This document shows, piece by piece, positions 19,701 through 37,457 of a stretch of DNA of 37,457 nt. Source of the stretch: Planctomycetaceae bacterium (GTDB taxonomy: Bacteria; Planctomycetota; Planctomycetia; Planctomycetales; Planctomycetaceae); NCBI GenBank assembly GCA_020426345.1, contig JAGQQE010000015.1, forward strand, positions 1-37,457. The letters run 5' to 3'. Every line of letters starts with the position of its first letter. The first letter of the stretch is position 1. The notes below the pieces were generated by a model that did not search any database, was not told where the DNA came from, and was given only the letters and a program-made list of their open reading frames with translations. The position numbers and the translations under genes are program-made.

Positions 19701-20891
19701 TTAATACTGGATGACTTTGCGAAGCATGAAGGTGCCCGCAACTGTCAGGATGAGATTCGGTACCCACATTGACCAGGTTGGATCCAGCGTTCCCGTCTTG
19801 CACAGATTGAGCATGAGAAACATGACGGGGTAATAGACCAGCAGAATTGGAAGGAAGCACATGATAAAGCTGGTGATAAACTGACGGCGGGCCTGAAGCA
19901 TCGAGAATGGTCCACCGACAAGCGCAAAGAACAAACAACTGCCGGACATCGCCATTCGACTGTGAATTTCGGAGCGAAATCGATGCGTGTTTTGTACCGC
20001 CTGACGTTCGGCAGCCTGGTACGATACCTGATCTTCACCCGCGAGCTGACTGAAATCACCGACCAACAGGGCCATGGCTGTCTGGTTGACCTGCTGTTGC
20101 CTGGCATAGTCCAGATCTGCACCTGATTTTTCAATACCTGCCGCTAGTTCCGTCACCGTCAGGTGTCTGGCTTTGATGTTGCCGATGGTCTGAGGCAATG
20201 GCAGGGAAAATTCATGAAAATCCACGTCGCCGCTGGAATCTGATCCCGGTCGACTGAATGTGGCATTCTTCAGCATCAGCTTGATTTCCTGCCCTTCCAG
20301 ATCGAAGTGTATTTTTGCCTGCTCTGCCCGCACCGTGATCTGATCGTGGTTGCGAGTTCGATATCGAAACGTGGCGTCCATCAGTATTCGATTTCGTACC
20401 TCCAGCACCGTAATGGAATAACCTCGTTGAGGATCATTGATCAGATTCTGTGATGACAACACATCCAGAAAGATGTCCTCCATTGCCTGTGTAACAATGT
20501 TGTTGATGTTGGTAACAGCCCACGGTATGGCGAAGTTGGTCAGCCCGAACGACGCAATCGCCAGCAGAAAGCCCAGCAGAAACGCTGGAGACAGCAGTTG
20601 CAGTGCGCTGACTCCGGCGGCTTTGGCAGCCGTGACTTCCAGATCTCCCGAAATCCGACCGTACACAACGCACACGGAAAGCAGCAAGGTTGCCGGAATC
20701 GTGAAAGGCAACATGCTCGGAACGACATACGGCATGATCTGGAGTATTTGAACCGGCCCAAGACCTCGGTCTGTGGCTTCACGAAACACACCGACAAACA
20801 CAAGCATCACCGTCAACACGATGACCAGCAACGTGAAGACGCGAACCAGTTCGCCAAAGATATATCGTTGCAACAGCTTCAATCGACGCAC
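19701..20891 (-). CDS. LptF/LptG-family permease (YjgP/YjgQ)
   Basis: 396 residues from a GTG at 20889-20891 (RRLKLLQRYIFGELVRVF), the usual N-terminus of this family; the frame extends to 20996 with polar residues that do not fit. TM1-3 at about 16-37, 55-78 and 99-125 with LQIMPYVVPSMLPFTIPATLLLSVCVVYGR, a periplasmic beta-jellyroll at about 130-290, and three C-terminal helices (about 305-395). LptF/LptG dimerise with the LptB ATPase to extract lipopolysaccharide from the inner membrane and pass it to the Lpt bridge. Only one copy is here, so I do not choose between F and G. The gap to the shortened SecA upstream is about 320 bases. Confidence 0.88.
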   Translation of the reverse strand: MRRLKLLQRYIFGELVRVFTLLVIVLTVMLVFVGVFREATDRGLGPVQILQIMPYVVPSMLPFTIPATLLLSVCVVYGRISGDLEVTAAKAAGVSALQLLSPAFLLGFLLAIASFGLTNFAIPWAVTNINNIVTQAMEDIFLDVLSSQNLINDPQRGYSITVLEVRNRILMDATFRYRTRNHDQITVRAEQAKIHFDLEGQEIKLMLKNATFSRPGSDSSGDVDFHEFSLPLPQTIGNIKARHLTVTELAAGIEKSGADLDYARQQQVNQTAMALLVGDFSQLAGEDQVSYQAAERQAVQNTHRFRSEIHSRMAMSGSCLFFALVGGPFSMLQARRQFITSFIMCFLPILLVYYPVMFLMLNLCKTGTLDPTWSMWVPNLILTVAGTFMLRKVIQY

Positions 20892-21210
20892 TCCTGACAA
20901 ATCACGTCCGGAGCGAGGGTTTGATTCCCGATCAGTCGAAAACAATATGCGAAGCACATGATCGCAGCGTCCATGCGGCGAAAGTGAATGAACCAAAAGC
21001 CTCTATTCCAGGGCCATCAACCTGATGATGACGAAGGTTGCCAAACCTGACGCAGGAGTCACTGCAATTCCGCCCCAGAGTTGTGAAGGGTAAGCTTCCC
21101 GCGATTTTCTCACAATCCCGTTCCCAGAACCTGGCCAGCCCAGATTGCTCAGGCTTCCCGTTTTGGTGCCTCGCTGGATATCCTCCTGAATGGTGCATGC
21201 CGGGAAGGCA
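20892..21210. other. Gap between the SecA paralogue and the LptF/G gene
   Basis: About 319 bases; no convincing gene on either strand. A small hairpin (ATGCC, loop GGGAA, GGCAT; 21197-21211) sits exactly at the secA stop but has only a 5-base stem and no T-run, so it is a poor terminator candidate. Nothing else stands out. Confidence 0.3.
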
Positions 21211-23148
21211 TCAGCGAGCATGGCGGAACAGTTTGTCTCGATAGGAATCTCGCTGCAGCAGCTGCATGCGACCGACGTATTGCTGGCGTTCGGCTGCCTG
21301 TTGAACCCTTCGCAGCTGGGTGGCAAAATCAGCAAAGGTCTCGCCGGACGCGTCGGCTTCCCGCTGAATGGCCGCGGCAAGCCACGGGCCGTGATTTGTT
21401 AAGAGAGTGTCTTCTGCGCTGGCAAATACCTGGGCCGAACCAGGATCGCCCTGACGACCACATCGCCCGATCAGCTGACGATCCATTCGCCCGGCGTTTT
21501 GACATTCGGAGACAATGACATGAAGTCCCCCCTGTCGTTTGACATCGGGATGAAGGCTGATGTCGGTTCCGCGCCCGGCGAGATTGGTCGCAATGGTGAC
21601 AGAGCCGGGCTGACCGGCGTGCGAAACGATGTCTGCTTCGTCTGCAGTTTGCAAACCATTCAGGACCTGGTGTGGTACACGAAGCTCAGCTAACAGCCGG
21701 GAGATCACATCGGTATCGGCAATTGATCGGGTTCCAACCAGAACAGCACGTCCGGCTTTCTGCTTCCGGATGATCTCTTCTGCGATGGCATTCCATCTTG
21801 CCTTGCGGGTGGCGAAGTATCTTGTCGGCATGAGTTGTCTTGCAGATGGGACTCGCAGTGGGATCTCTTCAATCTTCAATCGATAGACTTCTTTTAATTC
21901 CTGCTCGCATCCAATTGCTGTCCCGGTCATCCCGCACAGATTGTTATAAATCCGAAAAAACCGCTGTCGTGTGATCTGAGCCAAAGGAGATTTCTCGGCC
22001 GTGATTTTCAGGCCCTCTTTCGCCTCGATCGCCTGATGCAGGCCATCCTGCCATGATCGATCCTCAAATATTCTTCCGGTTGTTTCGTCGACGATCCGCA
22101 CTTCATCGTCTTCCACCACGTAGTGCACATCGCGCCGAAACAGTAATCGGGCTCGCAGGGCCTGCTGCACGTATTCCGTCCACGGACGAATGAGCACCGG
22201 GACAGGAATCCTGACATCAGCGCTGTGGCACCGCTGAATGCCTTCACCGGTCAGCATCAGAAGTCCTGACGCTGCATCCATCTGGTAGTGCTTTTCGGGC
22301 TCCAGCTGACTCAGCAACTGCATCGCCATTTGATGAGCACTGGCATCCGGTGCGCCATCCTGAGCAGACATGCTGAGCACCAGGGGCGAACCGGCATCAT
22401 CAATCAGAACGCTGTCTGCTTCGTCAACAACGGCATATTCCAGCCCACGCTGCATAGTGAGCCGGCGGCCATCTGCTGGTTCCTGCAGTGCCTGCAGAAG
22501 TCGAGAGCCGGCCGGTCGTCGGCTCTCCTGACGAAGTGTCAGCTGGTCGCGGAGATAATCGAATCCAAATTCGTGGCCGGTTCCGTATGTCACGTCGCAG
22601 TCATAGGCCGGGAATTTCTGAATCGCTTCCACCCGCTCGGGCAGCAGTCCGGCTGTCATGCCAAGTTCTGCCAGGACCGGCGCTGCGAGAGACTGGTCGC
22701 GTTCGGCAAGGTATGTGTTTGGCGTTATCACATGTACGCCACGACCTGCCATGCCAAGATAACCAGACGCAGCGATACCCACAAAGGTCTTGCCCTCGCC
22801 CGTTTGCATCTGCGCTATTCGATTTCGGGATAACGCTGCTACAGCAAGCAGCTGGACGTCATACAGACGAATGTTCTTTGATCGACGCAGCGCTTCACTG
22901 ACCAGAGCGAGTCCGGCAACCAGCATCTCCGGTTCGCTTGTACTTCGCCCGCGAGCCAGTTCACGCCGAATGACCATCACCTCGTCGATTAGCTCATCGC
23001 GGTTCGCTGTCTTCAGCCGTTCGGCCAGGTCACGAATATGCGGGAGTAGCTGTTCGGATGGGATTTCCGTCGACAAAACAGGTGAAGCGTTTCGAAACGA
23101 CTGAGAGACGCTGGATGGACTTCTGGATGTCGAAGCTTCGTTCGGCAT
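21211..23148 (-). CDS. Shortened SecA paralogue (SecA-type DEAD motor ATPase)
   Basis: 645 residues from the ATG at 23146-23148; the frame extends to 23406, but that part overlaps the TolC-like gene and does not look like SecA. SecA motifs in order: Walker A QTGEGKT (115-121), TYGTGHEFGFDYLRD (about 187-201), Walker B VDEADS (241-246; housekeeping SecA usually has DEVDS), a PPXD-like region (about 255-400), GMTGTA, TNLAGRGTDISL, and GRCGRQGDPGS at about 560. Canonical SecA is about 850-950 residues. Here the protein ends about 70 residues after the last helicase motif, in a segment like the start of the helical scaffold, so most of the helical wing/scaffold and the zinc C-tail are absent. It follows the TolC-like gene by 50 bases. 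I infer a specialised accessory export motor. Confidence 0.88.
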   Translation of the reverse strand: MPNEASTSRSPSSVSQSFRNASPVLSTEIPSEQLLPHIRDLAERLKTANRDELIDEVMVIRRELARGRSTSEPEMLVAGLALVSEALRRSKNIRLYDVQLLAVAALSRNRIAQMQTGEGKTFVGIAASGYLGMAGRGVHVITPNTYLAERDQSLAAPVLAELGMTAGLLPERVEAIQKFPAYDCDVTYGTGHEFGFDYLRDQLTLRQESRRPAGSRLLQALQEPADGRRLTMQRGLEYAVVDEADSVLIDDAGSPLVLSMSAQDGAPDASAHQMAMQLLSQLEPEKHYQMDAASGLLMLTGEGIQRCHSADVRIPVPVLIRPWTEYVQQALRARLLFRRDVHYVVEDDEVRIVDETTGRIFEDRSWQDGLHQAIEAKEGLKITAEKSPLAQITRQRFFRIYNNLCGMTGTAIGCEQELKEVYRLKIEEIPLRVPSARQLMPTRYFATRKARWNAIAEEIIRKQKAGRAVLVGTRSIADTDVISRLLAELRVPHQVLNGLQTADEADIVSHAGQPGSVTIATNLAGRGTDISLHPDVKRQGGLHVIVSECQNAGRMDRQLIGRCGRQGDPGSAQVFASAEDTLLTNHGPWLAAAIQREADASGETFADFATQLRRVQQAAERQQYVGRMQLLQRDSYRDKLFRHAR

Positions 23149-23198
23149 AGGAATCAACAGCTCGGACAACAGCCCGCAAACAGACGGAAGACGGTTAG

Positions 23199-26100
23199 TT
23201 ATGGCCCGGTCAGCGAATGTCCGCCCGATGATTGCAACCTGCCGGATGAAGGAATCCGCTGGCCATTCATTACGGGAGGGCTGCTGGAAGGCTGAACCGC
23301 CGGTGAGTATCTGATGGCAGGTGATGGTGCGACAACAGAATTTGCATTGCCCGGGTGATTCACAGGCACTGAGCCTTGCCCCCCCGAACTGTTGACAGGA
23401 GCCCACGTCGTCTGCGAATAGGCAAGGCTTTGGTTTGATCGAGCATCCGTGGGCATCGTTGCAGGATCAGCAAAGGTCGTGGCAGTGATGGATGCTGGTA
23501 CGACATTGGTTCCACCGTCGACACGCCCATGCATTGTTTCTTCAATGCGCTGGGCCATCCACTCGGAATGCTGCGACAGAGTTTCCGGGCTGTCATGACG
23601 CGACCGAAGCAGGACGCCGGTGACCTGGCGAAGTTTGATAATTGACAATGCGTATTTGACCTGTGCGTCAACAAACGTCGATTCTTCGTCGGCCAGACGT
23701 TCGAAGCCATCCAGAAGGTCCTCCAGCAGCAGGATCGCGGAATCTTCGGCATCGGGGAGGACTTCGAATCGATCCTTCAGATAGTTGGTTTCATTCTGCG
23801 CTGCGACCATCGCCTGATAACGGCCCTGCATTTCGCGGTACGCAGTTTCCACTTCGCGATTGGCAACTTCGACTTCTGTCAAAGATGCTTCAACGGTTGC
23901 TCGAAAGACGTTAATCGAGCGTTGCAGTTCCCACTTTCGCTGTTCGTATCGAGCCCGCGCGGCGCGATTTCCCAACGGAACCTCGAATTCAAATCCAACC
24001 GTGTACCCCGGTTGCCCGCGGGTGAACTGATTGGCAATCGAAGTGTCGATACGATCCTTCGCCTCCAGCCCGGCAACGTAAGTTTTCACCAGGAAGTCGA
24101 GCTTCGGAAGCATCTCATTCCGACTTACGCCCAGGCGCACACCGGAAGCTCTCATTTGACGTATCGCGCGACTGATATCGGGCCGATTGATCAGGGCTGT
24201 GTTCAGCGAATCGTGAAGTACCGGAGCAACGGGAATCATCGCCGGCATCTCCGTCGGCATGAACTCAACCGGCCCCTGATTCAGCATGGCCGGGTCATTG
24301 ACCAGCAGCCGCAATTGCGATTCTGTATTTCTGATCGCGGTCACAGCCCGCTGCATGCGAGCTTCTGCTCTGGCTACTGCTGCGCGAGCACGCAGAATCT
24401 GTCGGGGAACAGTATCAACCTGATCTCGTCCCTCCAGTGTTTGAAGCACAGAGCGTGCGGATTCGACCAGTTTCTGACGCTGATAGAATTCCGCCCGGCT
24501 TCGGTAGAGCTGCCAGTATGCTTCCGTGACCTGGTACAGATGGTCCTGTAGTTCTGCCAGAACTTCGTCGCTGGATGAATTGGTGGTGATTCGAGCCAGA
24601 ACAATCTGGCTCTGGCTGTAAATGCTACCCGCACCATTCCAGACAGGTTGTCGAAAGCTAAGCTCCAGACGCGACGTCGACTGCGGATTCGGGACCAGAT
24701 ACGTCGAGTTGTTGTATTGGTGCCCGACTCGCTGACTGACTTCCAGTTCACCGCCGCTGGACGTCTTCTTCCGAAAGCCGCCAATGGTGCTGAATTTGTT
24801 ATCCTTGAACCGATCCGACAAATCTCCGGTGGTGAGCCGATTGCCGACAGGGTCGTTCAGATCGTCGTACGTTGTTTCGAGGAAAGTGCGCCAGTCGAAT
24901 TGGGCTTCTTCCTGCCAGACGATTCTTTGCTGCACTTCCGGTTCTGCCTGAAGTGCCAGAATCTGGGGAGAATACAGCATGGCCTGCCGGACCAGTCCGG
25001 CTGCATCTACTGTCATGGGTGTGGGCGCGATCCCCATGTGATTTCGAACCAGCGAATCCCACCACGGACGAAATTCGATGGGCATGTGCGAGCTGGACTG
25101 AGGTGTCAGGATCGTGGATTCCAGTCCCATTCGCGCCGCGCGATCCTGGTAAGAATGCAACCATCGCGGTGCATCGGATTCGACGGTGGCTCGAAAACCG
25201 GACTGACCGGGATAGTGTCCACTTCCCTGATAGCCTGGCGATGGAACGCCTGGCCGAGATTGCTGACTGAAGTTCGGGTCAATGGAATCAGGCTGTCCTG
25301 TCGGTGGCTGCCGGGAATACGATGGCCCGGGCGAATCACCAACGGGGCCTTTCCCGATGGGAACAGGGCCGTTCCGAACAGGATCGGATGTGCCTTCCGG
25401 AGTGGGATGGACCTGGTGAGGCAGCGGTATATCAGCCGTGTCAGATGATAAACCTCTCGGCAGTGAAGGCGGTTGAAAGACTGGAGCCGGTGGCACAACG
25501 GGCGGCGTTGGGTTGCCGGGGACTGACGTTTCAGGAATCGCCGAGGGTGGCTGAAGTGCACTGGTTCCAAAGACGGATTGAGCGATGCGGGATGCGTCCG
25601 AAAGGGGGGCACCGGTCACAGGATTCACCGAACCGGTCGTCTGAGGGTTCGAGGGAGACACAGTTTGCTGCAACTGTGGAAGTGCCTGTAGCCGTGGATC
25701 TGCCAGTTCTGACGACACTGAAGGAAAAGGCTGTTCCACGAAATGAGCGGGTTGCTGCTCAGGAAGGATACCGGCTGTGGGTGGTCCCGGATTGGCAGCA
25801 ATATCGGAGGACAACGATCCGTTTGCCAAAGTTTGTGACGCGCTGTTTGCCAGAGTTTGTGACGCCTCTCCCGCGGACTGAATAAGTTGCTCAGCAGAAT
25901 GTTCGGCCATCATACCGGGTTGAGAAACGATGAGCACACCCGAACGAGATGGAGCCCGACGGATGGCCGGGCTGCGGAGAGATACAGACGAAACAGGAGT
26001 ATTTGAAGTTCTGGTTGCTGGTCCTGCCGTTACTGATCCTGCCATTCTGCCGGCAGCAGGCTTGTCCGTGTACGGGTGAGCCGAACTCAAACCTGGAGCA

Positions 26101-26639
26101 TTTGTTGATTCTGCGGGATTGTTCTCTTTCGAAGACATCTCAGCCGCGATCTGACGAAACATGGCTGTCATTCGCTTTTCCAGGTCGGGATCCATTCCAC
26201 CGCCTTTGGAACTGCTCTGGGCACTTGTTTTCGATTCTGAGGGGTCTGTCATGGGAACGATCCGGGGGAACCCTCCTGGAGGGGCGACCCGGGGCGCTCT
26301 CAATGTGATGTTCGTGGGCTGACCTTCCCTGATCTGAACAGCGGCCAGATCTGACGACGGCAAGAACAGGGTTCCAGCAACCAGCACCGCACCCAGAGCG
26401 ATCGCGGTAGAACGCCTTCGTCGTGTGGAGGTAATTCTCTGAGTCGAGTCCTGTGATACAGCCGCTTGACAGAGTGAACCAGAAACCCGCCGTGGACCAA
26501 CCAGTTCGCGCAGCCAGACAGAGAGTCGTTGACGACCATCTGCTTGGACACCATGACCTTCAACCGAGTGCTGTGTCGCAGGTAAGCCCTGAGAACAGCC
26601 TTCCGTTGAGGATGATTTTGGCGAAGGAAAGTGGTTCAT
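23199..26639 (-). CDS. TolC-family outer-membrane efflux/secretion protein with long Pro/Ser-rich N-terminal arm
   Basis: 1146 residues, about twice the usual TolC length. An extended N-terminus (1-72) precedes RRRR and a hydrophobic core at about 78-96 (IALGAVLVAGTLFL), then SSDLAA before VQI, probably a signal peptide with a long n-region. Residues about 110-520 are Pro/Ser/Gly/Gln-rich and look disordered, with a short repeat SQTLANSASQTLANGS. From about 535 to 1010 comes the outer-membrane factor domain: paired long helices with LVRQAMLYSPQILALQAE, ITTNSSSDEVLAELQDHLYQ, INRPDISRAIRQMRASGVRLGVSRNEMLPKLDF, VGFEFEVPLGNRAARARYEQ, and VEASLTEVEVANREVETAYR. The C-terminal 130 residues are again low complexity. 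TolC proteins form the outer-membrane exit of tripartite pumps and type I secretion systems. No adaptor or ABC exporter is in the window. Divergent from the giant surface protein. Confidence 0.86.
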   Translation of the reverse strand: MNHFPSPKSSSTEGCSQGLPATQHSVEGHGVQADGRQRLSVWLRELVGPRRVSGSLCQAAVSQDSTQRITSTRRRRSTAIALGAVLVAGTLFLPSSDLAAVQIREGQPTNITLRAPRVAPPGGFPRIVPMTDPSESKTSAQSSSKGGGMDPDLEKRMTAMFRQIAAEMSSKENNPAESTNAPGLSSAHPYTDKPAAGRMAGSVTAGPATRTSNTPVSSVSLRSPAIRRAPSRSGVLIVSQPGMMAEHSAEQLIQSAGEASQTLANSASQTLANGSLSSDIAANPGPPTAGILPEQQPAHFVEQPFPSVSSELADPRLQALPQLQQTVSPSNPQTTGSVNPVTGAPLSDASRIAQSVFGTSALQPPSAIPETSVPGNPTPPVVPPAPVFQPPSLPRGLSSDTADIPLPHQVHPTPEGTSDPVRNGPVPIGKGPVGDSPGPSYSRQPPTGQPDSIDPNFSQQSRPGVPSPGYQGSGHYPGQSGFRATVESDAPRWLHSYQDRAARMGLESTILTPQSSSHMPIEFRPWWDSLVRNHMGIAPTPMTVDAAGLVRQAMLYSPQILALQAEPEVQQRIVWQEEAQFDWRTFLETTYDDLNDPVGNRLTTGDLSDRFKDNKFSTIGGFRKKTSSGGELEVSQRVGHQYNNSTYLVPNPQSTSRLELSFRQPVWNGAGSIYSQSQIVLARITTNSSSDEVLAELQDHLYQVTEAYWQLYRSRAEFYQRQKLVESARSVLQTLEGRDQVDTVPRQILRARAAVARAEARMQRAVTAIRNTESQLRLLVNDPAMLNQGPVEFMPTEMPAMIPVAPVLHDSLNTALINRPDISRAIRQMRASGVRLGVSRNEMLPKLDFLVKTYVAGLEAKDRIDTSIANQFTRGQPGYTVGFEFEVPLGNRAARARYEQRKWELQRSINVFRATVEASLTEVEVANREVETAYREMQGRYQAMVAAQNETNYLKDRFEVLPDAEDSAILLLEDLLDGFERLADEESTFVDAQVKYALSIIKLRQVTGVLLRSRHDSPETLSQHSEWMAQRIEETMHGRVDGGTNVVPASITATTFADPATMPTDARSNQSLAYSQTTWAPVNSSGGQGSVPVNHPGNANSVVAPSPAIRYSPAVQPSSSPPVMNGQRIPSSGRLQSSGGHSLTGP
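25804..25864 (-). repeat. Short in-frame tandem repeat inside the TolC-like gene
   Basis: The word TTTGCCAAAGTTTGTGACGC is followed 21-24 bases later by TTTGCCAGAGTTTGTGACGC, differing at one base. On the coding strand it encodes two copies of ASQTLAN in the disordered arm. It is a small coding duplication, not a CRISPR unit. Confidence 0.6.
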
Positions 26640-26913
26640 GAATATCTGTGGGGACTATTCCTGTATGGAGTTCGGCCATGCTCGCATCGCGAGGTGACGG
26701 ACCAAGGCGCGAACGGAACGTCCGCGTTGTCCTTACAAGTCGTCTGTTTTGGCCATGAGGCCTCAGTGAAATCCTGCGCCGAGACAATCGTTCCTTTCGG
26801 CATATTCGGTTCGACCGGCAAATATCGCTCAGTTTGCCAAATTGGAGCGATTAGTCCTTCCTCGCGGCAGGAAATGCCGGTCGTTCGCATCCTTCTGATC
26901 TGATCAGTCAGGC

Positions 26914-26926
26914 GTGAGTTTCTCAC
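26914..26926. repeat. Inverted repeat GTGAG-TTT-CTCAC
   Basis: Perfect 5-base arms around a 3-base loop in the divergent control region. Possible protein-binding site or small hairpin; no protein is assigned. Confidence 0.35.
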
Positions 26927-26990
26927 TTGGTGAACTGGGGATTCACAGCCGGGTTTTTCTGCACTGTCATTTCTGTGGACTAGTTTTTCA

Positions 26991-27004
26991 TCAACGTTCG
27001 TTGA
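26991..27004. repeat. Inverted repeat TCAACG-TT-CGTTGA
   Basis: Perfect 6-base arms around TT, about 75 bases before the giant gene start. The size and position fit an operator for a dimeric regulator; this is inference. Confidence 0.4.
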
Positions 27005-27078
27005 AATCCGTCCGGACCAGACGGTCTGAACGATGCGACGGGCGATCACTGGTGCTGCAAGACCAGTAGAAAGACAAA

Positions 27079-30000
27079 GTGCGAAACGTGGGGTTGGGAT
27101 CCCGTGACCTTCAAAAACACCTCAAGCTTCTGCTGTCAGAAGCGTCCCATCGATTGCGCGCAAACCAGCGTGCCGGGCTGTCTGAACCAGCACCCAGAAT
27201 CAGCCATCTTGAAGAACGATTGTTGATGAGCGTGACGCCTCTGGCGGTCGTTGCGGATGTCGCGTCGATTGAATCCACTGGCAACAGCCAATCCGTTGGG
27301 GTGGAAACGGCTTTTGGCTTCTCCGGAGACGATTTTTCGGTCAGTAATCACACCACAGCGGTTCAGGACGACGGCCTGGCGTCTGCCGCTGATGAACAGA
27401 TCAATGGCGGAGAGTTCCATCGCGAGCCCGGTGAGAACCTGCCACTGGATTCGATCCCGCACGATTCGATCCCACGGGGGCCCGAACTGATCGTCATTGA
27501 CTATCGCGTTCAGGATGCGGACGGCATTCTGGCGAACCTCCTGAACACGGATCGAGAATTTCGCCTGCTTCGACTGGAGAGTCATTCTGACGGTTTACGT
27601 CAAATTACGGAGAAGCTCCAGACGCTGGGGGATGTGTCAGCCATTCACTTGCTGACCCACGGAACTGACGCCGAGATCTCACTCGGAGCAACGGTGCTCA
27701 ACAGTCGCTCGCTGCCGCAGCATACCGCCGAATTGCTGGCATGGCAGCACAGCCTGACAAGCGGCGCAGACTTGCTGCTGTATGGCTGTGACGTTGCCGA
27801 ATCACCAGAGGGTCGTGACTTTATCGATCAGCTGCGATTGTTAACCGGGGCAGACATCGCTGCCAGTACCGATGATACCGGTCAACAGTCGCTTGGTGGC
27901 GATTGGCACCTCGAATATCAACAGGGTTATATCCAAACCGTCTCGCCATTTTCGGCAGGAATCGATGGGTGGTCAGAGCTGCTTGCATTCGCAACCTACC
28001 GTGACGAATTCAACGCCGTCACTTTTGACGGTTCAGACGGAAGTCAAACCTGGGCAGCCGATCCCTGGGTGGAAATTGGTGAATCGGACGGTGCTGGCGC
28101 AGGGCTCGTCCGAGTCACAAATTTTCTTGGCAGAGATGCCCTGAACGTCAAGAAGGATGGGAATGGGATTCAGCGGCAATTTGATCTGACCGGTGCCGAC
28201 TCCGCGATTCTGTCGTTCGATTATGCCCAGATAGGTATCCAGTCCGGGCAGAGCGTCGATTTGCAGGTTTCGGAAGACGGAACCAGCTGGACAACCCTGC
28301 GACAGTTCAACAGCATCACCGACGATTCGGCTTACGTATTCGCGAGCTTTGATATCGGTAGCTTCATCAGCGGTAGTACTCAAATTCGTTTCATCGGTGG
28401 TGGCGGTGGGACACCGGAACTGTACATCGACAATGTACAAATTGCCTACACGACGGCCACCGTGACAAATTTCGTGGAACTCGGCGTTACAACAACGCCG
28501 GGTATCGTCGAGGAGACAAGTGGACAGAATCGTGGTGGGGCACAGTCGATCGCCGTGGCTCCAGACGGCAGCTACATCGTGGTCTGGACGGAGGTGAAAC
28601 CGTCCGGCAATTTGTCGGATGTGTTTGCCCAGCGTTTCGATGCCACGGGGTTGAAGACGGGAGCGAAAATCCGGGTCAACGTGATGACAGCCGACGAGCA
28701 ACAGTGGGCATCAGCGGCCGTCGACGGCACGGGGCGTTTTGTCGTCACATGGACAAGCAATAATCAGGACGGAAGTGGCAGCGGAGTCTACCTGAGACGT
28801 TTCAACAGTGATGGGACTGCCATCGATACGGTTGATGTGCTGGTGAATTCAGGAGCAACGACCAGTGATCAGTCAAATTCGTCCATTGCGGTAAATTCGC
28901 AGGGCGATATCGTCGTTGCCTATCAGGAGACAAATGGTGGAAGCAGCACCGTCTTTGTTAAACAATTCAGTATGCAGGCCGCCGCGGGTATCAGCCAGCT
29001 GCCGTCAGCATCCATTGCCGTCGATTCCGGCACCAATCGCATCAATCCATCGGTCGACATCAACAGCAACGGTGATTTCGTTGTTGCGTGGCAGAAGGGC
29101 AACAGGCCCTATCTGCAGCGATTTTTTTCCGATGGAACGGTTCATGGCAGTGATTTGAACGTAAATCCGCTGAACCTGCTTGGAGCCCTTGAACAGTATC
29201 CTGTGGTTGCCCTTCACGATAGTGGCGAGGTTAGTCTCGCCTATCGTTCTGAAATCTCCGGCTTCAACGGAATCTGGAGCAAGCGTTACCACGCAGATGG
29301 ATCAGCCTATGGATTGGCAATCAAAGTAGGTGACGGTTCTGCCAACGATACAGAGCCTTCGATCAGCAAGGACGCTTCGGGAAACATCGTGATTGTCTGG
29401 CAGGGTGACGATGCCGACAGCAGCGGCATTTATGCCCGCCAGTACGACTCGAATCACAGTGCAGTTGGTGACGCCTTCCTGCTGAATACCGCATCAGAAA
29501 TCGGAATTCAGACAGGGGCATCTGTCGGCATGCAGGGTCTGAGCAGTTTCGTAGCGGTCTGGAGTGGTACGGGGGTCAGCGATGCGAATGGCATTTTCGC
29601 CAGTCAGTTTTCCGCCGCTCCGTTACAGCAATCTGCGACGTTGACGCCTGCCGGCGACACCTACATCGACAAGTCGAATGCGGCAGCCAATTATGGAGCT
29701 TCGACCAGTCTGATGGTCGATCATTCGGGCGGCAGCATTGGCGATACGAGGTCCCTCTTACAATTTGATCTCAGTGGCATTCCAACAGGTGCGACAATCA
29801 CGGGGGCCACGTTAAAGCTCAATGCAACGTCGATCACGGGTACATTCAATGTCGACGTATATGAACTAACTCAGGCCTGGTCTGAAGGCAACGGTATTGG
29901 TGCGACGGACGCAGCGAACTGGGATGACCGCCAGCCAGGGGTCGGTTGGGGAACGGCGGGTGGAAGCTTCAATCCAACTCCTGTCTCGACGCTTGGCGCT

Positions 30001-33000
30001 GGAACGACCGGGCTGCATTCGTGGGACATAACCTCACTTGTTCAGGCGTGGTATAACGGATCTTCAGTCAATAACGGTGTCATTATTGGCAGCACAAATA
30101 ACGGGGGTAACACGGTCACGTATGACAGTAGCGAAGGAACAACCCCACCAGAGCTGGAAATCCTTTACGCAGTGCCAAATGCCGTTCCAGTCGCAAACGC
30201 CGGTGGACCATACACGATCGACGAAGGACAGTCGTTGTCGCTGGATGCGAGTGGTTCCTCTGATCCCCATGGCGGCTCGCTCATCTATTCCTGGGATCTG
30301 GACGATGATGGTGTCTATGGTGAGTCTGGTGAACTTTCCGGTGTGAATCCAGTGGTTTCATGGGCGACTCTGCAATCACTGGGCGTCGGTACCGCTGGTT
30401 CCCATGTGATCCGCCTGAAGGTGGATAACGGGGTTGATGTCAGTTACGCCTCGACGCTGCTGACAATTCAATCTGAAGTTCCGACAGCGAACCCGGATTC
30501 TGTTTCCACAACCATGAGCGCGCCCGTGACCATCACGGCTCTGGCAAATGATATCGATCCCTGGAACGCCGGGCTGACGATTCTGGATTTCAGCGCTCCG
30601 GCCAATGGGACAGTCCTCAGCAATTCGGATGGCACCTTACAGTATTCTCCGGACACAGCGTTCAGCGGAACGGATACGTTCGATTACGTTGTTACCGACA
30701 AGAGAGACGGTCTCACCCATTTCTGGAATCTGGACGGAGGAGCTCTTGATGCCGTCGGGTCGGCAGACGGCGTCATCAATGGCGGGGCTCAATCGATTGA
30801 CGGTGCATTCGGGAGTGGATTGCTGTTCGATGAAATTGACGACTTCGTTGAGATTCCGGACATCACCTACAGCGATGAGTTTACTGTTTCATTCAAATTC
30901 CGGATTGATAACAACGACGGTGGTGATTACCTCTACCTGTACAGCCACGGCGATGCGGATTTCTCCAACAGTCTGAATGTGATGGTCGGCGAATCGGGTC
31001 GCCCCGGTTTTGCCGGCATCATGAAAACGGTGTTCGGCGATTCGGACGACCCCTATGAGCTCAATGCCTTAAACTTTGATGCCAGTGCGGTCATCGGCGA
31101 CGGTCAATGGCACACGTATGCTCTGACGGTCGACGCCATTCAGGGGGCATGGGTCTTTCTTGACGGTACTCTCCAAGCAGCTAACGCCTCCGCTGGCGGT
31201 GATGCATTCGATCCGACCGGATCGCTGTTCCTCGGTGCCCGCGAAGATCTTGAAGCGGCAAGATTCTTCGGTGGAGGCCTGGATTCAGTCGCCATATTCA
31301 ATCGATCATTGACGCCAACGGAAGTGGTCTCTCTGAATTCTGATGCGATAGCCACTCGTGCGACCTCAAGTGCAACGATTACCGTGTCGGTGGTCAATCA
31401 GGACCCGACCGCTGTGATCGCTCCTGTTTCCGCCATCAATGAAGGCCAGTCCGTTTTGCTGGATGGAACAGGTTCCAGCGATCCGGACGGAAGCCCGCTC
31501 ACTTATGAATGGGACATCAATTACAACGGGACATTCAATGCGGACGCGACGGGTTCTACGTCCACCATCGACTGGACTGCGTTGAACACTCTCGGTGTGA
31601 CGAACGATGGAACTTACCAGGTCGCTTTGCGAGTGTACGATGGCACCAGCTATTCGGCTGTCGTGCAGCGTTCAATGACAATCAACAATGTCGTTCCGTT
31701 AATGACTTCGACCGGCTCACTCTCCGTTTCGGAAGGTTCGACCACGGTCACTACAATCTCTGCCACCGACGTTAACGATACGATTTCGTATTCGATCTCC
31801 GGCGGTGCAGATGCTGCGCTGTTCTCGATCGATTCCGTTACCGGAGGATTGTCATTCAATCTCGCTCCGGACTTTGAAGGGCCGACGGACAACGGCCTGG
31901 ACAATGTCTACGATGTGCAGGTGCAGGCATCAGATGGGGACGGTGGCATCGCAACGCAGGATCTGAATGTCACTGTACTGGATGCAAATGACAATCCACC
32001 GGTCATTGCCCCCGGTCAGGTATTTACGGTTTCCGAGTCTGTTGCGCCGGGGACTGTTGTTGGGATTCCTACTGCATCGGATCCGGATACTGCAACGACG
32101 TTCAGCAGCTGGACCATTCTGAGCGGTAACACAGGCGGCGCGTTTGTCATCAATTCTGCCACCGGGGAACTCACGACTGCAACTGCCCTGGACTATGAAA
32201 CTCTGTCAGTCTATCAGCTGCAGATCGCAGTCAGTGACGGAACCAACACTTCCAGTCCTGAGACGATCACAATTCATCTGACCGACGCGGGGGAGAATGC
32301 ACCGGTCGCAGTGGACGACAGCTATACCGTTGATGAAGGCTCGTCCCTGACGATATTGGCCATCGGCGACTGGCACAACGTCAACTGGAACTACAGGCAA
32401 CGCCTTGCGTTCAGCGACTCGTTCCTGGCCAGCTCGCTCACCAGCCAGCCAGTGCTTGTAAAACTGCACGCGTCAGCGGCGGATGCGATCGGTATTGATT
32501 ACTCAAAGACCCAGTCTGCCGGAGAAGATCTGCGGTTCTACGATTCGGCTGGGAATCTCTTGAACCATGAAATCGATAAGTGGGACGAATCGGGTTACTC
32601 CTATGTTTGGGTGAACGTTCCGGCGATTGACCCGGCCAATCCCGGCGACTTTATCTGGATGTACTACGACAACCCTGATGCACCAGATGGCCAGAATGCA
32701 ACGGGGGTCTGGGGAAGTGAAGACAAAGCCATCCACCATCTACAGATCCTGCCATCAGACTCAACGGCAAACGGGAACAACCTCGCGCACTCTTCGATTT
32801 ATATCGCTCCCGGTATAGTTGCGGATGCAGCGGGATTCAACGGGTCAAGCAGTATCGGCGTCATCTCCGATGACGCTTCCCTGCAGAACATCTTTTCGGG
32901 GGGCGGTACTGTTTCTGCCTGGATCAACCCAGCGACCTGGGGAGATGCCGGAGAAGGTCGGATTCTTGACAAGGCGTCGTCGTTACTGAACCCGAATGGT

Positions 33001-36000
33001 AGTGGATGGAATCTGAAACTCGATCAGACCAACGGAAGTCTGCGGTTCAGCTATGGCTTCTCTGGTGGTGCCGGGGAGTGGAGAACTGCGACGAATTCCA
33101 TTCAACTGGGCCAGTGGCAGCAAGTAGCCGTTGTCTATGACAACACGAATGCCTCGAACACACCAGATATCTATATCAATGGTGTTCAACAAACGCTGAC
33201 TGCCATCCGAACTCCTTCAGGTACGCCAACGTCAGATGCCGGCCTGGATCTGTACGTCGGTGACCGATTTAATCAGACCGCAACCTATAGCGGAGTTGTC
33301 GACGAACTTCGAATCAGCAGGCAGGGGGCAACTGCCGAGCAAATCCTTGCCGACTATCGGACGGTGACAGGTGCGCTGGTTGTTTCGGCCGAAGAGTTGA
33401 GTGGTCCCGGTGGACTGATGCAGAATGACAGTGATGCGGATGGGGAAAACATGACAGTAACTGTCGTGAATGGCCCCGCCCACGCAGCGAATTTTCAGTG
33501 GCTGGCGAACGGATCCTTTCTTTACCAGCACGACGGAAGCGCGACAACTTCGGATTCGTTTACGTATTACGTGACTGACGCAGGTGGGGCAACTTCAGCG
33601 ATCACGACCGTCAACATCACCATCAATGGTATTAATGACGCGCCAACGGACATTTCCCTTTCAAATTCGACAGTCGTCGAAGGCACCGCTGGTGCGATTG
33701 TGGGCACACTGTCGACAACCGACCCCGATCCCTCAGATTCACATACATACTCGGTCGACGATACTCGCTTTGAGGTGGTCGGAGGTCAGTTGAAACTCAA
33801 AGCCGGGCAGGGACTGGACTTTGAAACAGAACCGTCTGTCCTGCTCAGCATTACATCGACGGATCCCGGAGGTCTGCAGATCTCGCGGAACTTCACTATT
33901 ACGGTCGACGACACGAACGACAACGCGCCGGTTATCACACCGGGTCAGTTGTTCGCGATCAGCGAGTCGGCGAGCAATGGGGCGATTGTTGGAACGGTTA
34001 CAGCCACAGACTCAGATGCGTCAACCACATTCAGTAACTGGACGATCGTTGGTGGAAATTCGGACGGAGTGTTTACAGTCAACAGTTCGACGGGACAGAT
34101 CACAATTGCTGATCGGACGAATTTGGATTTTGAAGCAACGACAAGCTACTTACTGACACTTACGGTCAGCGATGGCATAAGTACGTCGGCCAGTCAGTCA
34201 GTTATCGTCAATGTGACGAATGCAAACGACAATCTTCCGGTCGTTACTCCTGGTCAGACCTTCACGATTTCCGAATCGGCCATCGTCGGACAAACGATCG
34301 GCTTTGTCTCGGCGACGGATGCCGACGGGACGGCAACGTTTAGTAACTGGATGATAACCGGGGGAGATCCTGATGGAATCTTCGCGCTGAATGCCTCGAC
34401 AGGTAAGCTTGAGGTCGCTGATCCCTCAAGGCTGGACTATGAAGTGACCACCAGCTTTTCTCTGCTGATTACAGTATCAGATGGTACAAACACCTCCGCA
34501 GCACAAAGCGTTACGGTCAACGTCACCGACGTCAACGATGTCGCGCCGGTCATAGATTCCGGACAGAGTTTTTCTGTCAGCGAAGTCACTTCTGCAGGAG
34601 CCAGTGTGGGATTTGTCACGGCTTCTGATCCGGATAGCTCTACACTCATGGCATGGGCCATCACCGGAGGAAATAGTGGAAATGCGTTTGCAATAGATGC
34701 CTCTACTGGCGAGATTTCCGTAAATGATCCTGCCGCCTTCGACTACGAAACCAATACCAGTTTTTCGCTGCTAATTACGGTTTCCGACGGCACAAACACT
34801 TCTGCAGCACAAGACGTAACAGTCAGTCTCCTGAACGCGAACGACAATGCCCCAGTGATTTATGCTGCAACTTTCAATGTCAACGAAGCCGCCGGCTCAG
34901 GGACTCTTGTGGGCATTGGCACGGCAAGCGATGCGGATGGCCCGACAACATACACCAACTGGCAGATCGTTTCTGGCAACACGAGTGCCGTCTTTGACAT
35001 GAATTCATCGACCGGTGCAATCACGGTCAACAATTCAACGGCTCTGGATTTTGAGACAACGCCTGCCTACACCCTTGTGATTACCGTAAGCGACGGGGTG
35101 AATACGTCCCTGCAGCAATCCATCACGGTCAATGTCAGCAACGCGAACGAAGCTCCCACTGCGGTGGCCGGCCCGGATCAGACGATTTCTGAAGGACAGT
35201 CTGTTTCTCTCAGCGGAGTGGCCTCCAGTGATGTCGACGGCGACGCCCTGGTTTACAGTTGGGATCTCAACGCCGATGGCATCTTTACGGACGCCATCGG
35301 CGTTAATCCGACGCTCAGCTGGGCTCAGTTGTCTGCTCTGGGTATCAACGATGACGGGACTTACCTGATAACATTGAGGGTGACAGATCCGTCCGGGTCT
35401 TCGGCGGTTGATGACCTTGTGTTGCAAGTCAACAATACGGAACCGTCAATAACTCTCACGGCCAGCGCACAAGCGGCAACCGGATCTCCATGGACCCTGC
35501 ACGTCGCCTCTTTTGATCCGGGGTCTGATACTGTTTCTCAATGGTTGATTGACTGGGGTGATGGTCAAACTGCCAACGCTTCCGCCACGTCAGGCGGCCT
35601 GCTGCATACGTTTAGCAGCCCGGGCAACTTCCTCGTTACTGTGACACCCGTCGACGAAGACGGAACTCATACTGCGTCGGCCGCAACAATCTCTGTCGAA
35701 GTGCTGGCCACAGCAGTGCCGGCAAACGATACCTGGGTTGTGGATGCCACCACGGGATTGAGTTTGACAGATCCAGCATTGGGAGTGACGGCTAATGATT
35801 CGGGTGTGTCTGGCTCAGCATCGGTTCAGCTCATAGACGGGCCTTCTCACGCCAGCTCATTTCGGCTGAACGCTGACGGAACGTTCTCTTATCAGGTGGC
35901 AGCTGGTTACACCGGTGTTGATTCATTTCGCTATCGCATCATTGATGGAGTTGCTGTCAGCGAGCCCGCGGTGGTGACGCTGAGTATCAACCAACCGCCA

Positions 36001-37457
36001 GCTCTGTCTTTCTTGCAGGACGTTTCTTCCATTGACGAAGGGACTCTTCTTGCCGCTCCACTTCGCATTGGTCAGTTCATCGTTAATGACGACGGTACCG
36101 GAACAAATGTTGTCTCACTGACGGGCACTGACTCGGCCCTGTTTTCAATCGATTCGAGTCACGTGCTTTACCTGAATGCTGGAATTGTCCCCAGCTTCAA
36201 TCTCACGTCACAGTTGCTTGTGACTGGAAACGTTGATGACAGCTCGATTGCCGGATCACCGGATGCTCGTATCAGCGTCATGGTAAGTATTTCCAACATC
36301 AATCATCAGCCCATTGCCACGCCGATTAGTAACGTGACTGTCGACGAGGATTCCGGACGGCAGACTACGCAGACGTCAGGAGCTTTCTCCGACCCGGACA
36401 GAGAAGATACGCTTCAGTACGCGGTGCAGGTTGTTAGTAACCCGGACAATGCCATTCGAAGCGTGTCGATTGACTCTGCGACCGGAGAAGTTGGCTGGTT
36501 CACCAGTGACAATGCCAATGGCGATGCTGTGGTACGGGTGACAGCCATGGATCCTTCCGGGGCTGTGGCCAGCAGTCAGTTCACGATTCATGTGACACCG
36601 ATCGACGACGCGCCGATTGCGCGAAGCGTTGTTCGCAATGTGTGGTCGGGAGTGAGCGTGTTCGTGTCGCCGGTTCCAGCATTACATGCGGCCGTGGATG
36701 TGGACGGTCAGTTGGTTTCTTTGCAGATTTTGCAGGGCCCGGAACACGGCAGTCTGTCCATCGCGCCGGATGGGACACTGATTTATGTCTCAGCGTCGGA
36801 CTTTGTCGGTATTGATCAGGTACTGTTTGTTTCGACGGATGGAACACTCGACAGCGACGTCGCACAATTGAGATTCTGGGTTCGGGCATCGCCACTTCTG
36901 ATTCCGTCTAATTCCGGTTCATCTTTGTCCGAGTCCCTGTCGACCAATTCCACTCCGGGGGCAGAAACAGTCAATTCACCGGTTTCGGATTCCGCTTCGG
37001 CCACATCCGGAACGTCATCGAACACCGGTCTGGCGCAGACTCCATCCGGTACACAGATTCAACAATTGGGCAATGGCCGGGGCAACTCATCTGACGATGA
37101 CGATGCGGCACTGCCAGCATTTGCGATTCTTGTTCGACAGGCGGAAGACATTGAATTTGATTTATCGAGCGCGGCCGAGATTATCGCCAATCTGGATAAT
37201 GTGGTCGATGCGGGATCTCTGCGCGGGCTGGAATCCACGATTTCTGTCCGCGACATTCGATCAGACTGGACGGACAGCGTCGAATTCAATCGCGTTGAGG
37301 ATGGTGTTCACGTCGACTTCTTCAACCTGATGAAGCTGACGACACATTCGACGTCTGTTTCACAGCAGCTGGAGCAGGATCTTAGCAGCGATTCGGCATT
37401 TGTGGGGGCAATTTCGGGCACAGTCCAGGTAGTCGCCTCGGGGCTGTCTGTCGGCTA
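27079..37457 (+). CDS. Giant modular extracellular/surface protein (DUF4347, propeller-like, DNRLRE, PKD, LamG, cadherin modules), 3' end beyond window
   Basis: A single open frame of about 3459 codons with no stop before the window ends; it starts after a TAG at 27067-27069. Possible starts are GTG 27079 (used), GTG 27088 and ATG 27226; none has a clear ribosome site. Residues 44-54 read LEERLLMSVTP, the planctomycete extracellular N-terminal signature. Then in order: DUF4347 (about 135-290; IHLLTHGTDAE, LLLYGCDVAES), a jelly-roll-like domain (about 300-455), seven FVVxW repeats, DNRLRE, PKD, an Ig-like module holding a LamG, PKD, two cadherin repeats, an Ig-like module holding DUF2341 and LamG, five more cadherin-type repeats, two PKD-like, more Ig/cadherin-like modules, a Ser/Thr-rich linker, and a terminal region ending SGLSVGY. 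In related proteins I recall, this last motif begins a transmembrane helix. DxNDN-type cadherin loops imply Ca binding. Probable adhesin or matrix protein; function inferred. Confidence 0.88.
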   Translation, partial: MRNVGLGSRDLQKHLKLLLSEASHRLRANQRAGLSEPAPRISHLEERLLMSVTPLAVVADVASIESTGNSQSVGVETAFGFSGDDFSVSNHTTAVQDDGLASAADEQINGGEFHREPGENLPLDSIPHDSIPRGPELIVIDYRVQDADGILANLLNTDREFRLLRLESHSDGLRQITEKLQTLGDVSAIHLLTHGTDAEISLGATVLNSRSLPQHTAELLAWQHSLTSGADLLLYGCDVAESPEGRDFIDQLRLLTGADIAASTDDTGQQSLGGDWHLEYQQGYIQTVSPFSAGIDGWSELLAFATYRDEFNAVTFDGSDGSQTWAADPWVEIGESDGAGAGLVRVTNFLGRDALNVKKDGNGIQRQFDLTGADSAILSFDYAQIGIQSGQSVDLQVSEDGTSWTTLRQFNSITDDSAYVFASFDIGSFISGSTQIRFIGGGGGTPELYIDNVQIAYTTATVTNFVELGVTTTPGIVEETSGQNRGGAQSIAVAPDGSYIVVWTEVKPSGNLSDVFAQRFDATGLKTGAKIRVNVMTADEQQWASAAVDGTGRFVVTWTSNNQDGSGSGVYLRRFNSDGTAIDTVDVLVNSGATTSDQSNSSIAVNSQGDIVVAYQETNGGSSTVFVKQFSMQAAAGISQLPSASIAVDSGTNRINPSVDINSNGDFVVAWQKGNRPYLQRFFSDGTVHGSDLNVNPLNLLGALEQYPVVALHDSGEVSLAYRSEISGFNGIWSKRYHADGSAYGLAIKVGDGSANDTEPSISKDASGNIVIVWQGDDADSSGIYARQYDSNHSAVGDAFLLNTASEIGIQTGASVGMQGLSSFVAVWSGTGVSDANGIFASQFSAAPLQQSATLTPAGDTYIDKSNAAANYGASTSLMVDHSGGSIGDTRSLLQFDLSGIPTGATITGATLKLNATSITGTFNVDVYELTQAWSEGNGIGATDAANWDDRQPGVGWGTAGGSFNPTPVSTLGAGTTGLHSWDITSLVQAWYNGSSVNNGVIIGSTNNGGNTVTYDSSEGTTPPELEILYAVPNAVPVANAGGPYTIDEGQSLSLDASGSSDPHGGSLIYSWDLDDDGVYGESGELSGVNPVVSWATLQSLGVGTAGSHVIRLKVDNGVDVSYASTLLTIQSEVPTANPDSVSTTMSAPVTITALANDIDPWNAGLTILDFSAPANGTVLSNSDGTLQYSPDTAFSGTDTFDYVVTDKRDGLTHFWNLDGGALDAVGSADGVINGGAQSIDGAFGSGLLFDEIDDFVEIPDITYSDEFTVSFKFRIDNNDGGDYLYLYSHGDADFSNSLNVMVGESGRPGFAGIMKTVFGDSDDPYELNALNFDASAVIGDGQWHTYALTVDAIQGAWVFLDGTLQAANASAGGDAFDPTGSLFLGAREDLEAARFFGGGLDSVAIFNRSLTPTEVVSLNSDAIATRATSSATITVSVVNQDPTAVIAPVSAINEGQSVLLDGTGSSDPDGSPLTYEWDINYNGTFNADATGSTSTIDWTALNTLGVTNDGTYQVALRVYDGTSYSAVVQRSMTINNVVPLMTSTGSLSVSEGSTTVTTISATDVNDTISYSISGGADAALFSIDSVTGGLSFNLAPDFEGPTDNGLDNVYDVQVQASDGDGGIATQDLNVTVLDANDNPPVIAPGQVFTVSESVAPGTVVGIPTASDPDTATTFSSWTILSGNTGGAFVINSATGELTTATALDYETLSVYQLQIAVSDGTNTSSPETITIHLTDAGENAPVAVDDSYTVDEGSSLTILAIGDWHNVNWNYRQRLAFSDSFLASSLTSQPVLVKLHASAADAIGIDYSKTQSAGEDLRFYDSAGNLLNHEIDKWDESGYSYVWVNVPAIDPANPGDFIWMYYDNPDAPDGQNATGVWGSEDKAIHHLQILPSDSTANGNNLAHSSIYIAPGIVADAAGFNGSSSIGVISDDASLQNIFSGGGTVSAWINPATWGDAGEGRILDKASSLLNPNGSGWNLKLDQTNGSLRFSYGFSGGAGEWRTATNSIQLGQWQQVAVVYDNTNASNTPDIYINGVQQTLTAIRTPSGTPTSDAGLDLYVGDRFNQTATYSGVVDELRISRQGATAEQILADYRTVTGALVVSAEELSGPGGLMQNDSDADGENMTVTVVNGPAHAANFQWLANGSFLYQHDGSATTSDSFTYYVTDAGGATSAITTVNITINGINDAPTDISLSNSTVVEGTAGAIVGTLSTTDPDPSDSHTYSVDDTRFEVVGGQLKLKAGQGLDFETEPSVLLSITSTDPGGLQISRNFTITVDDTNDNAPVITPGQLFAISESASNGAIVGTVTATDSDASTTFSNWTIVGGNSDGVFTVNSSTGQITIADRTNLDFEATTSYLLTLTVSDGISTSASQSVIVNVTNANDNLPVVTPGQTFTISESAIVGQTIGFVSATDADGTATFSNWMITGGDPDGIFALNASTGKLEVADPSRLDYEVTTSFSLLITVSDGTNTSAAQSVTVNVTDVNDVAPVIDSGQSFSVSEVTSAGASVGFVTASDPDSSTLMAWAITGGNSGNAFAIDASTGEISVNDPAAFDYETNTSFSLLITVSDGTNTSAAQDVTVSLLNANDNAPVIYAATFNVNEAAGSGTLVGIGTASDADGPTTYTNWQIVSGNTSAVFDMNSSTGAITVNNSTALDFETTPAYTLVITVSDGVNTSLQQSITVNVSNANEAPTAVAGPDQTISEGQSVSLSGVASSDVDGDALVYSWDLNADGIFTDAIGVNPTLSWAQLSALGINDDGTYLITLRVTDPSGSSAVDDLVLQVNNTEPSITLTASAQAATGSPWTLHVASFDPGSDTVSQWLIDWGDGQTANASATSGGLLHTFSSPGNFLVTVTPVDEDGTHTASAATISVEVLATAVPANDTWVVDATTGLSLTDPALGVTANDSGVSGSASVQLIDGPSHASSFRLNADGTFSYQVAAGYTGVDSFRYRIIDGVAVSEPAVVTLSINQPPALSFLQDVSSIDEGTLLAAPLRIGQFIVNDDGTGTNVVSLTGTDSALFSIDSSHVLYLNAGIVPSFNLTSQLLVTGNVDDSSIAGSPDARISVMVSISNINHQPIATPISNVTVDEDSGRQTTQTSGAFSDPDREDTLQYAVQVVSNPDNAIRSVSIDSATGEVGWFTSDNANGDAVVRVTAMDPSGAVASSQFTIHVTPIDDAPIARSVVRNVWSGVSVFVSPVPALHAAVDVDGQLVSLQILQGPEHGSLSIAPDGTLIYVSASDFVGIDQVLFVSTDGTLDSDVAQLRFWVRASPLLIPSNSGSSLSESLSTNSTPGAETVNSPVSDSASATSGTSSNTGLAQTPSGTQIQQLGNGRGNSSDDDDAALPAFAILVRQAEDIEFDLSSAAEIIANLDNVVDAGSLRGLESTISVRDIRSDWTDSVEFNRVEDGVHVDFFNLMKLTTHSTSVSQQLEQDLSSDSAFVGAISGTVQVVASGLSVG
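28546..29613 (+). repeat. Seven FVVxW-type repeats in the giant protein (propeller-like)
   Basis: Seven successive units of about 45-60 residues share S-I/V-A-V-D-x-x-G-x-F/I-V-V-x-W ... G-V/I-Y-x-R-x-F-x-x-D-G. Examples are YIVVWTE/VFAQRFDATG, RFVVTWTSN/GVYLRRFNSDG, DFVVAWQKG/YLQRFFSDG and NIVIVWQGD/GIYARQYDSN. Seven blades would close a beta-propeller; the fold is inferred from count and spacing. Confidence 0.6.
29632..30174 (+). other. DNRLRE domain within the giant protein
   Basis: The encoded segment begins LTPAGDTYIDKSNAAANYGAS and continues RSLLQFDLSGIP, ATLKLNATS, YELTQAWSEGN, WDITSLVQAWYNG and GVIIGSTNNGG, which is the DNRLRE pattern found in bacterial surface and extracellular proteins. 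Confidence 0.75.
30700..31368 (+). other. LamG-like domain nested inside an Ig-like (Big_9) module
   Basis: An Ig-like module runs PTANPDSVST ... FSGTDTFDYVVTD up to 30699. A LamG/concanavalin-like domain then begins (HFWNLDGGALDAVGSADG, GSGLLFDEIDDFVEIPD, DGQWHTYALTVD, GLDSVAIFNRSLTPTEV). After about 31368 the Ig-like module finishes with SATITVSVVNQDPT. The join points are approximate. Confidence 0.65.
32362..33402 (+). other. DUF2341 plus LamG cassette nested inside a second Ig-like module
   Basis: The module opens APVAVDDSYTVDEGSSLTIL and is interrupted by a DUF2341-like part (WNYRQRLAFSDS, QPVLVKLHAS, DFIWMYYDNPDAPDG) and a LamG part (GGTVSAWINPATWGD, GQWQQVAVVYDN, VDELRISRQGATAEQI). 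From about 33403 it resumes with GGLMQNDSDADGENMTVTVV and ends ITTVNITINGINDAP. Confidence 0.65.
33931..35157 (+). repeat. Four tandem cadherin-type repeats of 101-103 residues
   Basis: Units start at 33931, 34240, 34549 and 34855 and are 309, 309, 306 and 303 bases long. Each has V-I-x-x-G-Q-x-F-x-I-S-E-S, a T-F-S-N-W core, N-A-S-T-G-x-I/L, L-D-Y/F-E and ITVSDGTNTS, ending NANDNxP. Units 2 and 3 share SFSLLITVSDGTNTSAAQ. A fifth similar unit lies earlier at 32002-32304. Confidence 0.85.

Follow-up and report, generated by a model that had tools for sequence, protein, structure and literature searches.

The window analysed here, a stretch of 37,457 bases, is the entire contig C66. Its right-hand part carries a gene for a giant surface protein, a TolC-family gene and a gene for a short SecA, with the following features:

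21211..23148, minus strand: short SecA with DEAD motor and preprotein domain, 645 aa
23199..26639, minus strand: outer-membrane channel of the TolC family (OEP), extended at its N-terminus by a long Pro/Ser-rich stretch, 1,146 aa
26640..27078, no strand: divergent intergenic region between the giant and TolC genes, 439 bases
27079..37457, plus strand: giant DUF4347/cadherin/Ig/LamG/PKD surface protein, the likely cargo; its 3' end (about 68 aa) is on contig C9
27208..27228, plus strand: LEERLLM motif near the giant's N-terminus, a divergent leader like LEPR-XLL (NF012209)
27487..27957, plus strand: DUF4347 domain, predicted caspase-like (clan CD) fold
27658-27660, plus strand: codon of the invariant DUF4347 His
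27787-27789, plus strand: codon of the invariant DUF4347 Cys
29656..36597, plus strand: repeat region of the giant (DNRLRE, Big_9/cadherin, LamG, DUF2341, PKD, He_PIG)
37399..37457, plus strand: start of the conserved C-terminal hydrophobic segment (SGTVQVVASGLSVG / YVIWALRGGMVLTGLLAQMPTWRLIDPL), continuing on C9

The original prediction described a protein of more than 3450 residues with an extracellular signature, divergent from a TolC-family protein that is followed 50 bases later by a SecA paralogue, and this arrangement was confirmed. The giant ORF (27079-37457, plus strand) is read away from the OEP ORF (26639-23199, minus strand), and while the mechanical ORF of the short SecA begins at 23406, its likeliest start is the first in-frame ATG past the TolC stop, at 23148, leaving a gap of exactly 50 bases. 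The giant has 3,459 codons in the window and is open at the contig end. It carries DUF4347, cadherin, Ig, LamG and PKD domains, and Pfam and NCBIfam scans of its window part gave no match to an RTX family. The window end overlaps contig C9 by 187 bases at 94.7% identity, and C9 supplies the last ~68 residues and the stop codon for a total of about 3,527 aa; because the overlap holds ten mismatches, C9 may be a strain variant or a close paralogue. Immediately after the short secA, in the same orientation, comes a single LptF/LptG-family permease gene (19701-20996).

This genome has three SecA genes. The copy on C52 is the housekeeping SecA, with 1,175 aa including SecA_SW (wing/scaffold) and SEC-C. 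The window SecA consists of SecA_DEAD, preprotein and P-loop domains with SecA_SW absent, and an unlinked short SecA on C68 likewise has only these three domains. When aligned to B. subtilis SecA the window protein covered residues 39-601 only and ended there. Ending near residue 601 takes away the wing domain, the two-helix finger and the C-terminal tail, and the short SecA was found without the wing, most of the scaffold, the two-helix finger and SEC-C. Walker A, the DEAD-like motif and the later ATPase motifs were conserved in ten short SecAs. In an unrooted tree of 90 SecA sequences, built by a quick method and without the sequences of Kamneva et al. 2015 among its rows, all 24 TolC-linked short SecAs fell into one supported group (99), which also held eight unlinked SecAs and included the window SecA. 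The SecA1 rows were set apart by a branch of support 100, with the window SecA away from them in a secondary clade, and the TolC-linked group was separate from most other short SecAs. Across wide sequence distance this clade has kept both its TolC linkage and its ATPase motifs.

The C68 copy (L006:1291-3408) belongs to a second group of short SecAs that is near-universal in the class and not linked to TolC. This sequence crosses a block of N and contains a duplicated stretch, which probably reflects an assembly artefact. A second type of M50-HlyD protein (up to 448 bits) is also near-universal in the class, and LE.R.LL proteins adjoin some loci of the second SecA clade or the second M50-HlyD type (L325, L326, L333). 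The short SecA was considered as a rare, system-specific gene and rejected as such, and because it is near-universal in the class the type of M50 protein was taken as the marker of the system instead.

The original prediction saw no adaptor or ABC exporter and proposed looking to the right for adaptor, M50 or ABC genes. As the window is the whole of C66, the DNA in that direction is not readable within the contig; the genome does have adaptors, with HlyD, GAF-HlyD and M50-HlyD genes together on contig C168, not adjacent to the TolC-SecA pair. The adaptor part of the claim therefore fell, and its ABC part stood for the TolC-HlyD-M50 loci examined, none of which held an ABC exporter. One divergent ABC gene on C168 was considered as an exporter and set aside as an MlaE lipid-type fusion that is not conserved there; this fusion (L258:7967-9583) is divergent from HlyD and apparently unrelated to the export genes. 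The same split between TolC-SecA and HlyD-GAF-M50 was found in two further genomes (G335 and G284).

TolC homologues were searched in 59 relatives and 20 neighbourhoods were read. The order in relatives was giant, then TolC-SecA-HlyD-GAF/HlyD-M50/HlyD, with the DUF4347 giant divergent from TolC in several. This full order was found in L261-L263, L266 and L267, and the giant beside TolC-SecA in L039 and L269, so that the giant, TolC and short SecA recur as a group in relatives, as the original prediction required of a dedicated system. Anchoring on the M50 gene instead gave 80 loci in named genomes, where TolC was present in 29, SecA in 17, GAF-HlyD in 67 and DUF4347 in 13, and TolC, SecA and DUF4347 all together in 4; these counts are lower bounds since many of the loci end at contig edges. 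The M50 motifs HExxH and NPLMxxDG were conserved, and the M50 part resembled daptide/epipeptide maturation metalloproteases (NF041824, NF058609). A moderately confident model of M50-HlyD (pLDDT 72.6) placed strands before helices at the N-terminus, an order that suggests an RRE-like domain; a Pfam search gave no match supporting PqqD/RRE homology there. Among the Desulfobulbaceae, a YdbH-like (AsmA-type) protein named by Pfam follows the M50-HlyD gene (L118:12145-14628), and a similar ORF occupies the same position in L135 (12148-14158).

The machinery itself is not new. Kamneva, Poudel and Ward described in 2015 a secondary SecA_DEAD, type I-related locus in planctomycetes and other phyla that comprises a SecA_DEAD protein without SecA_SW, HlyD, GAF-HlyD, M50-HlyD and sometimes OEP, with no ABC transporter (PMC4452313). 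They proposed the SecA as ATPase and the M50 protein as pore, and they noted unlinked cases (PMC4452313). The main text of that paper names no cargo; DUF4347, cadherin, giant and adhesin are all absent from it, as are the terminal motifs and the sensor described below (PMC4452313). The window has the same SecA_DEAD protein without SecA_SW, in a secondary clade apart from SecA1, and the HlyD, GAF-HlyD and M50-HlyD partners that share its neighbourhood in relatives are on C168 here.

Co-occurrence was assessed in 149 genomes of the class that were 90% complete or better, with system-type M50-HlyD defined as a match over 570 bits, the next best match being 448. System-type M50-HlyD was present in 13 of the 149. 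DUF4347 was detected in 12 of these 13 genomes as compared to 16 of the 136 others (Fisher p about 2e-9, uncorrected for relatedness). The pattern was repeated within a single genus of ten genomes (g53), where DUF4347 was found in 3/3 genomes with the system and 0/7 without it. M50-HlyD and DUF4347 lay within about 10 kb of each other in 8 of the 13 system genomes; one genome (G054) had the system with DUF4347 absent. DUF4347 giants thus co-occur with the system, and adjoin it, far beyond chance, the outcome the original prediction had proposed to look for. At the cut-offs applied, two nearly complete genomes, G004 and G006, matched SecA once each and M50-HlyD not at all, which makes them natural cargo-loss controls. 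These statistics make it very improbable that the giant, TolC and SecA are neighbours by chance and that the TolC-SecA pair serves another cargo, even with several such pairs (L042, L043, L050, L270, L276) found without an adjoining DUF4347.

Outside PVC, seven Proteobacteria and Bacteroidota genomes carried system-type M50 loci with full-length SecA only, although most of the seven are MAGs and a missing short SecA is not proof of absence in them. Among the loci read, none showed another clear motor ATPase next to its M50 gene. Either the system can do without the short SecA, or SecA1 can replace it.

The DUF4347 domain contains a His and a Cys that were invariant across 37 aligned sequences. 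Its AlphaFold2 model (pLDDT 92.8) had a caspase-like fold, with best structure matches to 9qpe, then legumain, Csx29 and caspases at modest TM-scores of about 0.4-0.56. The solved structure 9qpe is that of a T6SS effector presented as a putative cysteine protease (PMC13323088). From the predicted fold and the invariant His and Cys, DUF4347 probably belongs or is related to the clan CD peptidases, with putative activity. PDB profile matches to designed TIM barrels were limited to 28 residues and were taken as spurious.

Both ends of the giant carry conserved motifs. The pattern LE.R.[LMIV][LMF] occurred within the first 120 residues in 39 of 54 5'-complete DUF4347 ORF records, which include some overlapping copies of one gene, as compared to 16 of 1,113 background ORFs, and most of these giants have this N-terminal motif. 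It resembles the NCBIfam LEPR-XLL domain (NF012209, 17-bit cut-off). The motif of the window giant is weak and falls below the cut-off, which was passed by the L044 giant (20.7 bits) and by giants on C77 and C232 of this genome. No hydrophobic signal core was found ahead of LEERLLM in the window giant, and its N-terminus showed no n-region, h-region and cleavage layout; the residues that follow the motif are mildly hydrophobic (KD12 up to 2.2). LEPR-XLL was also considered as a clean profile partner of the short SecA. NF012209 is narrow, with 65 of the 149 genomes giving no match at E 0.1, and many of these 65 have a short SecA, so this partnership was rejected.

At the other end, system-linked giants share a hydrophobic segment with the consensus VVTTGxSxGYVIWxxRGGxLLxGVLxxxPxWxxxDPL. 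Strong matches to its profile (E below 1e-11) were found in 11 of the 13 system genomes and in 0 of the 136 others, a comparison that favours relatives of the system-linked giants since the model drew partly on them; four or five weaker matches were in other genomes. Directly behind the segment there is usually a sensor gene. For each of the first ten giants inspected, the following gene in the same orientation encoded a membrane sensor, often with the giant's stop and the sensor's start codon overlapping; the partner of the window giant is a hybrid kinase encoded on C9. The family has an N-terminal region and a PAS domain in common and varies in output (hybrid histidine kinase, GGDEF, GGDEF-HD). 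A match to the sensor N-terminal profile adjoined 18 of the 25 matches of the C-terminal search, weak ones included, with about half of these 18 places having also contributed to building the profile. Exchangeable outputs (hybrid HK-REC-Hpt, GGDEF, GGDEF-HD) on the common N-terminal region and PAS domain are found in the family of L313:14440-17034, and the same family stands directly behind C-terminal-segment giants in L314-L320, L323 and L324.

We consider it fairly probable that the T1SS-like SecA/HlyD/M50 system described by Kamneva and colleagues is present here as a split copy, with the window locus as one half, and that the giant is its likely cargo. Under this model the giant, which has no evident Sec signal, would be synthesised in the cytoplasm, and its N-terminal LEPR-XLL-like leader would take it to the M50-HlyD protein, which would act as an inner-membrane gate. 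The short SecA, a motor and preprotein clamp without the SecY-engaging parts, would drive the giant, and HlyD-type proteins would link to TolC so that the giant would exit N-terminus first. Its C-terminal hydrophobic segment would stay behind in the inner membrane, where it would either anchor the giant or be cut by the M50 protein, and the sensor encoded downstream, positioned beside that segment, could report the state of export or of the surface. The original prediction that a SecA motor and the channel serve the giant thus gains from the conserved group and the co-occurrence; its motor element does not: the short SecA is at most a candidate motor, since some genomes with system-type M50 loci show full-length SecA only. 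Another point against the model is that the M50 and HlyD genes are unlinked in the lineage of the window.

The locus might instead be a sensory or retention device, an explanation we regard as possible but unlikely. The C-terminal segment would then hold the giant at the inner membrane and the sensor would read the load, with transport as a prerequisite, loosely like the relation of LapD to large T1SS adhesins. The sensor abutting the giant in 18 of 25 cases, and its variable output on a common membrane N-terminus, would fit such a device. The argument for it is one of gene adjacency, however, and the hydropathy of the C-terminal segment (KD19 about 1.4-2.0) is borderline for a transmembrane helix. 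Somewhat less likely again is that the giant crosses the inner membrane through SecA1-SecYEG, with M50-HlyD, HlyD and TolC serving a periplasm-to-surface step only and the short SecA an accessory such as a chaperone or regulator. The system-type M50 loci in full-length-SecA genomes speak for this route, and the hydrophobic stretch behind the LEPR-XLL-like motif might be a cryptic signal. It is opposed by the missing signal-peptide layout of the giant's N-terminus and by the retention of ATPase motifs and linkage in the TolC-linked clade.

The dedicated export model has likenesses to several known systems. T1SSs for giant adhesins of the LapA and SiiE type likewise combine a giant repeat protein, an HlyD-type adaptor and TolC, with outputs of the c-di-GMP type nearby; here there is a SecA and an M50 protein, no ABC exporter in the loci examined and no RTX repeats, and the signal is apparently N-terminal. 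Accessory Sec systems also place a second SecA paralogue (SecA2) beside SecA1, but the window SecA ends at about residue 601 (B. subtilis SecA numbering) and scored below all SecA2 NCBIfam cut-offs. Daptide/epipeptide M50 proteases share the M50 core and the N-terminal region (NF041824, E 1e-45 to 1e-51), whereas the protein here is fused to a periplasmic HlyD-like domain and is below the equivalog cut-off. A literature search, with most subscription journals outside it, found no later work on the 2015 locus and no earlier description of the link to the cargo, of either terminal motif, of the coupled sensor or of the split arrangement.

More tentatively, an ABC-free machine may thread giants N-terminus first and leave a hydrophobic hairpin of their C-terminus in the inner membrane, next to the co-encoded sensor kinase or diguanylate cyclase. 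One protein would then run from there through TolC to a caspase-like tip outside, a doubtful candidate for a trans-envelope touch or ligand sensor. Together, the cargo family, the two candidate targeting or anchoring signals and the coupled sensor make the 2015 locus a system that can be tested directly. A motor-only SecA raises the question of what such a protein can drive once the SecY-engaging parts are gone, and the system might bear on how very large surface proteins are displayed without an ABC exporter in planctomycetes, verrucomicrobia and others.
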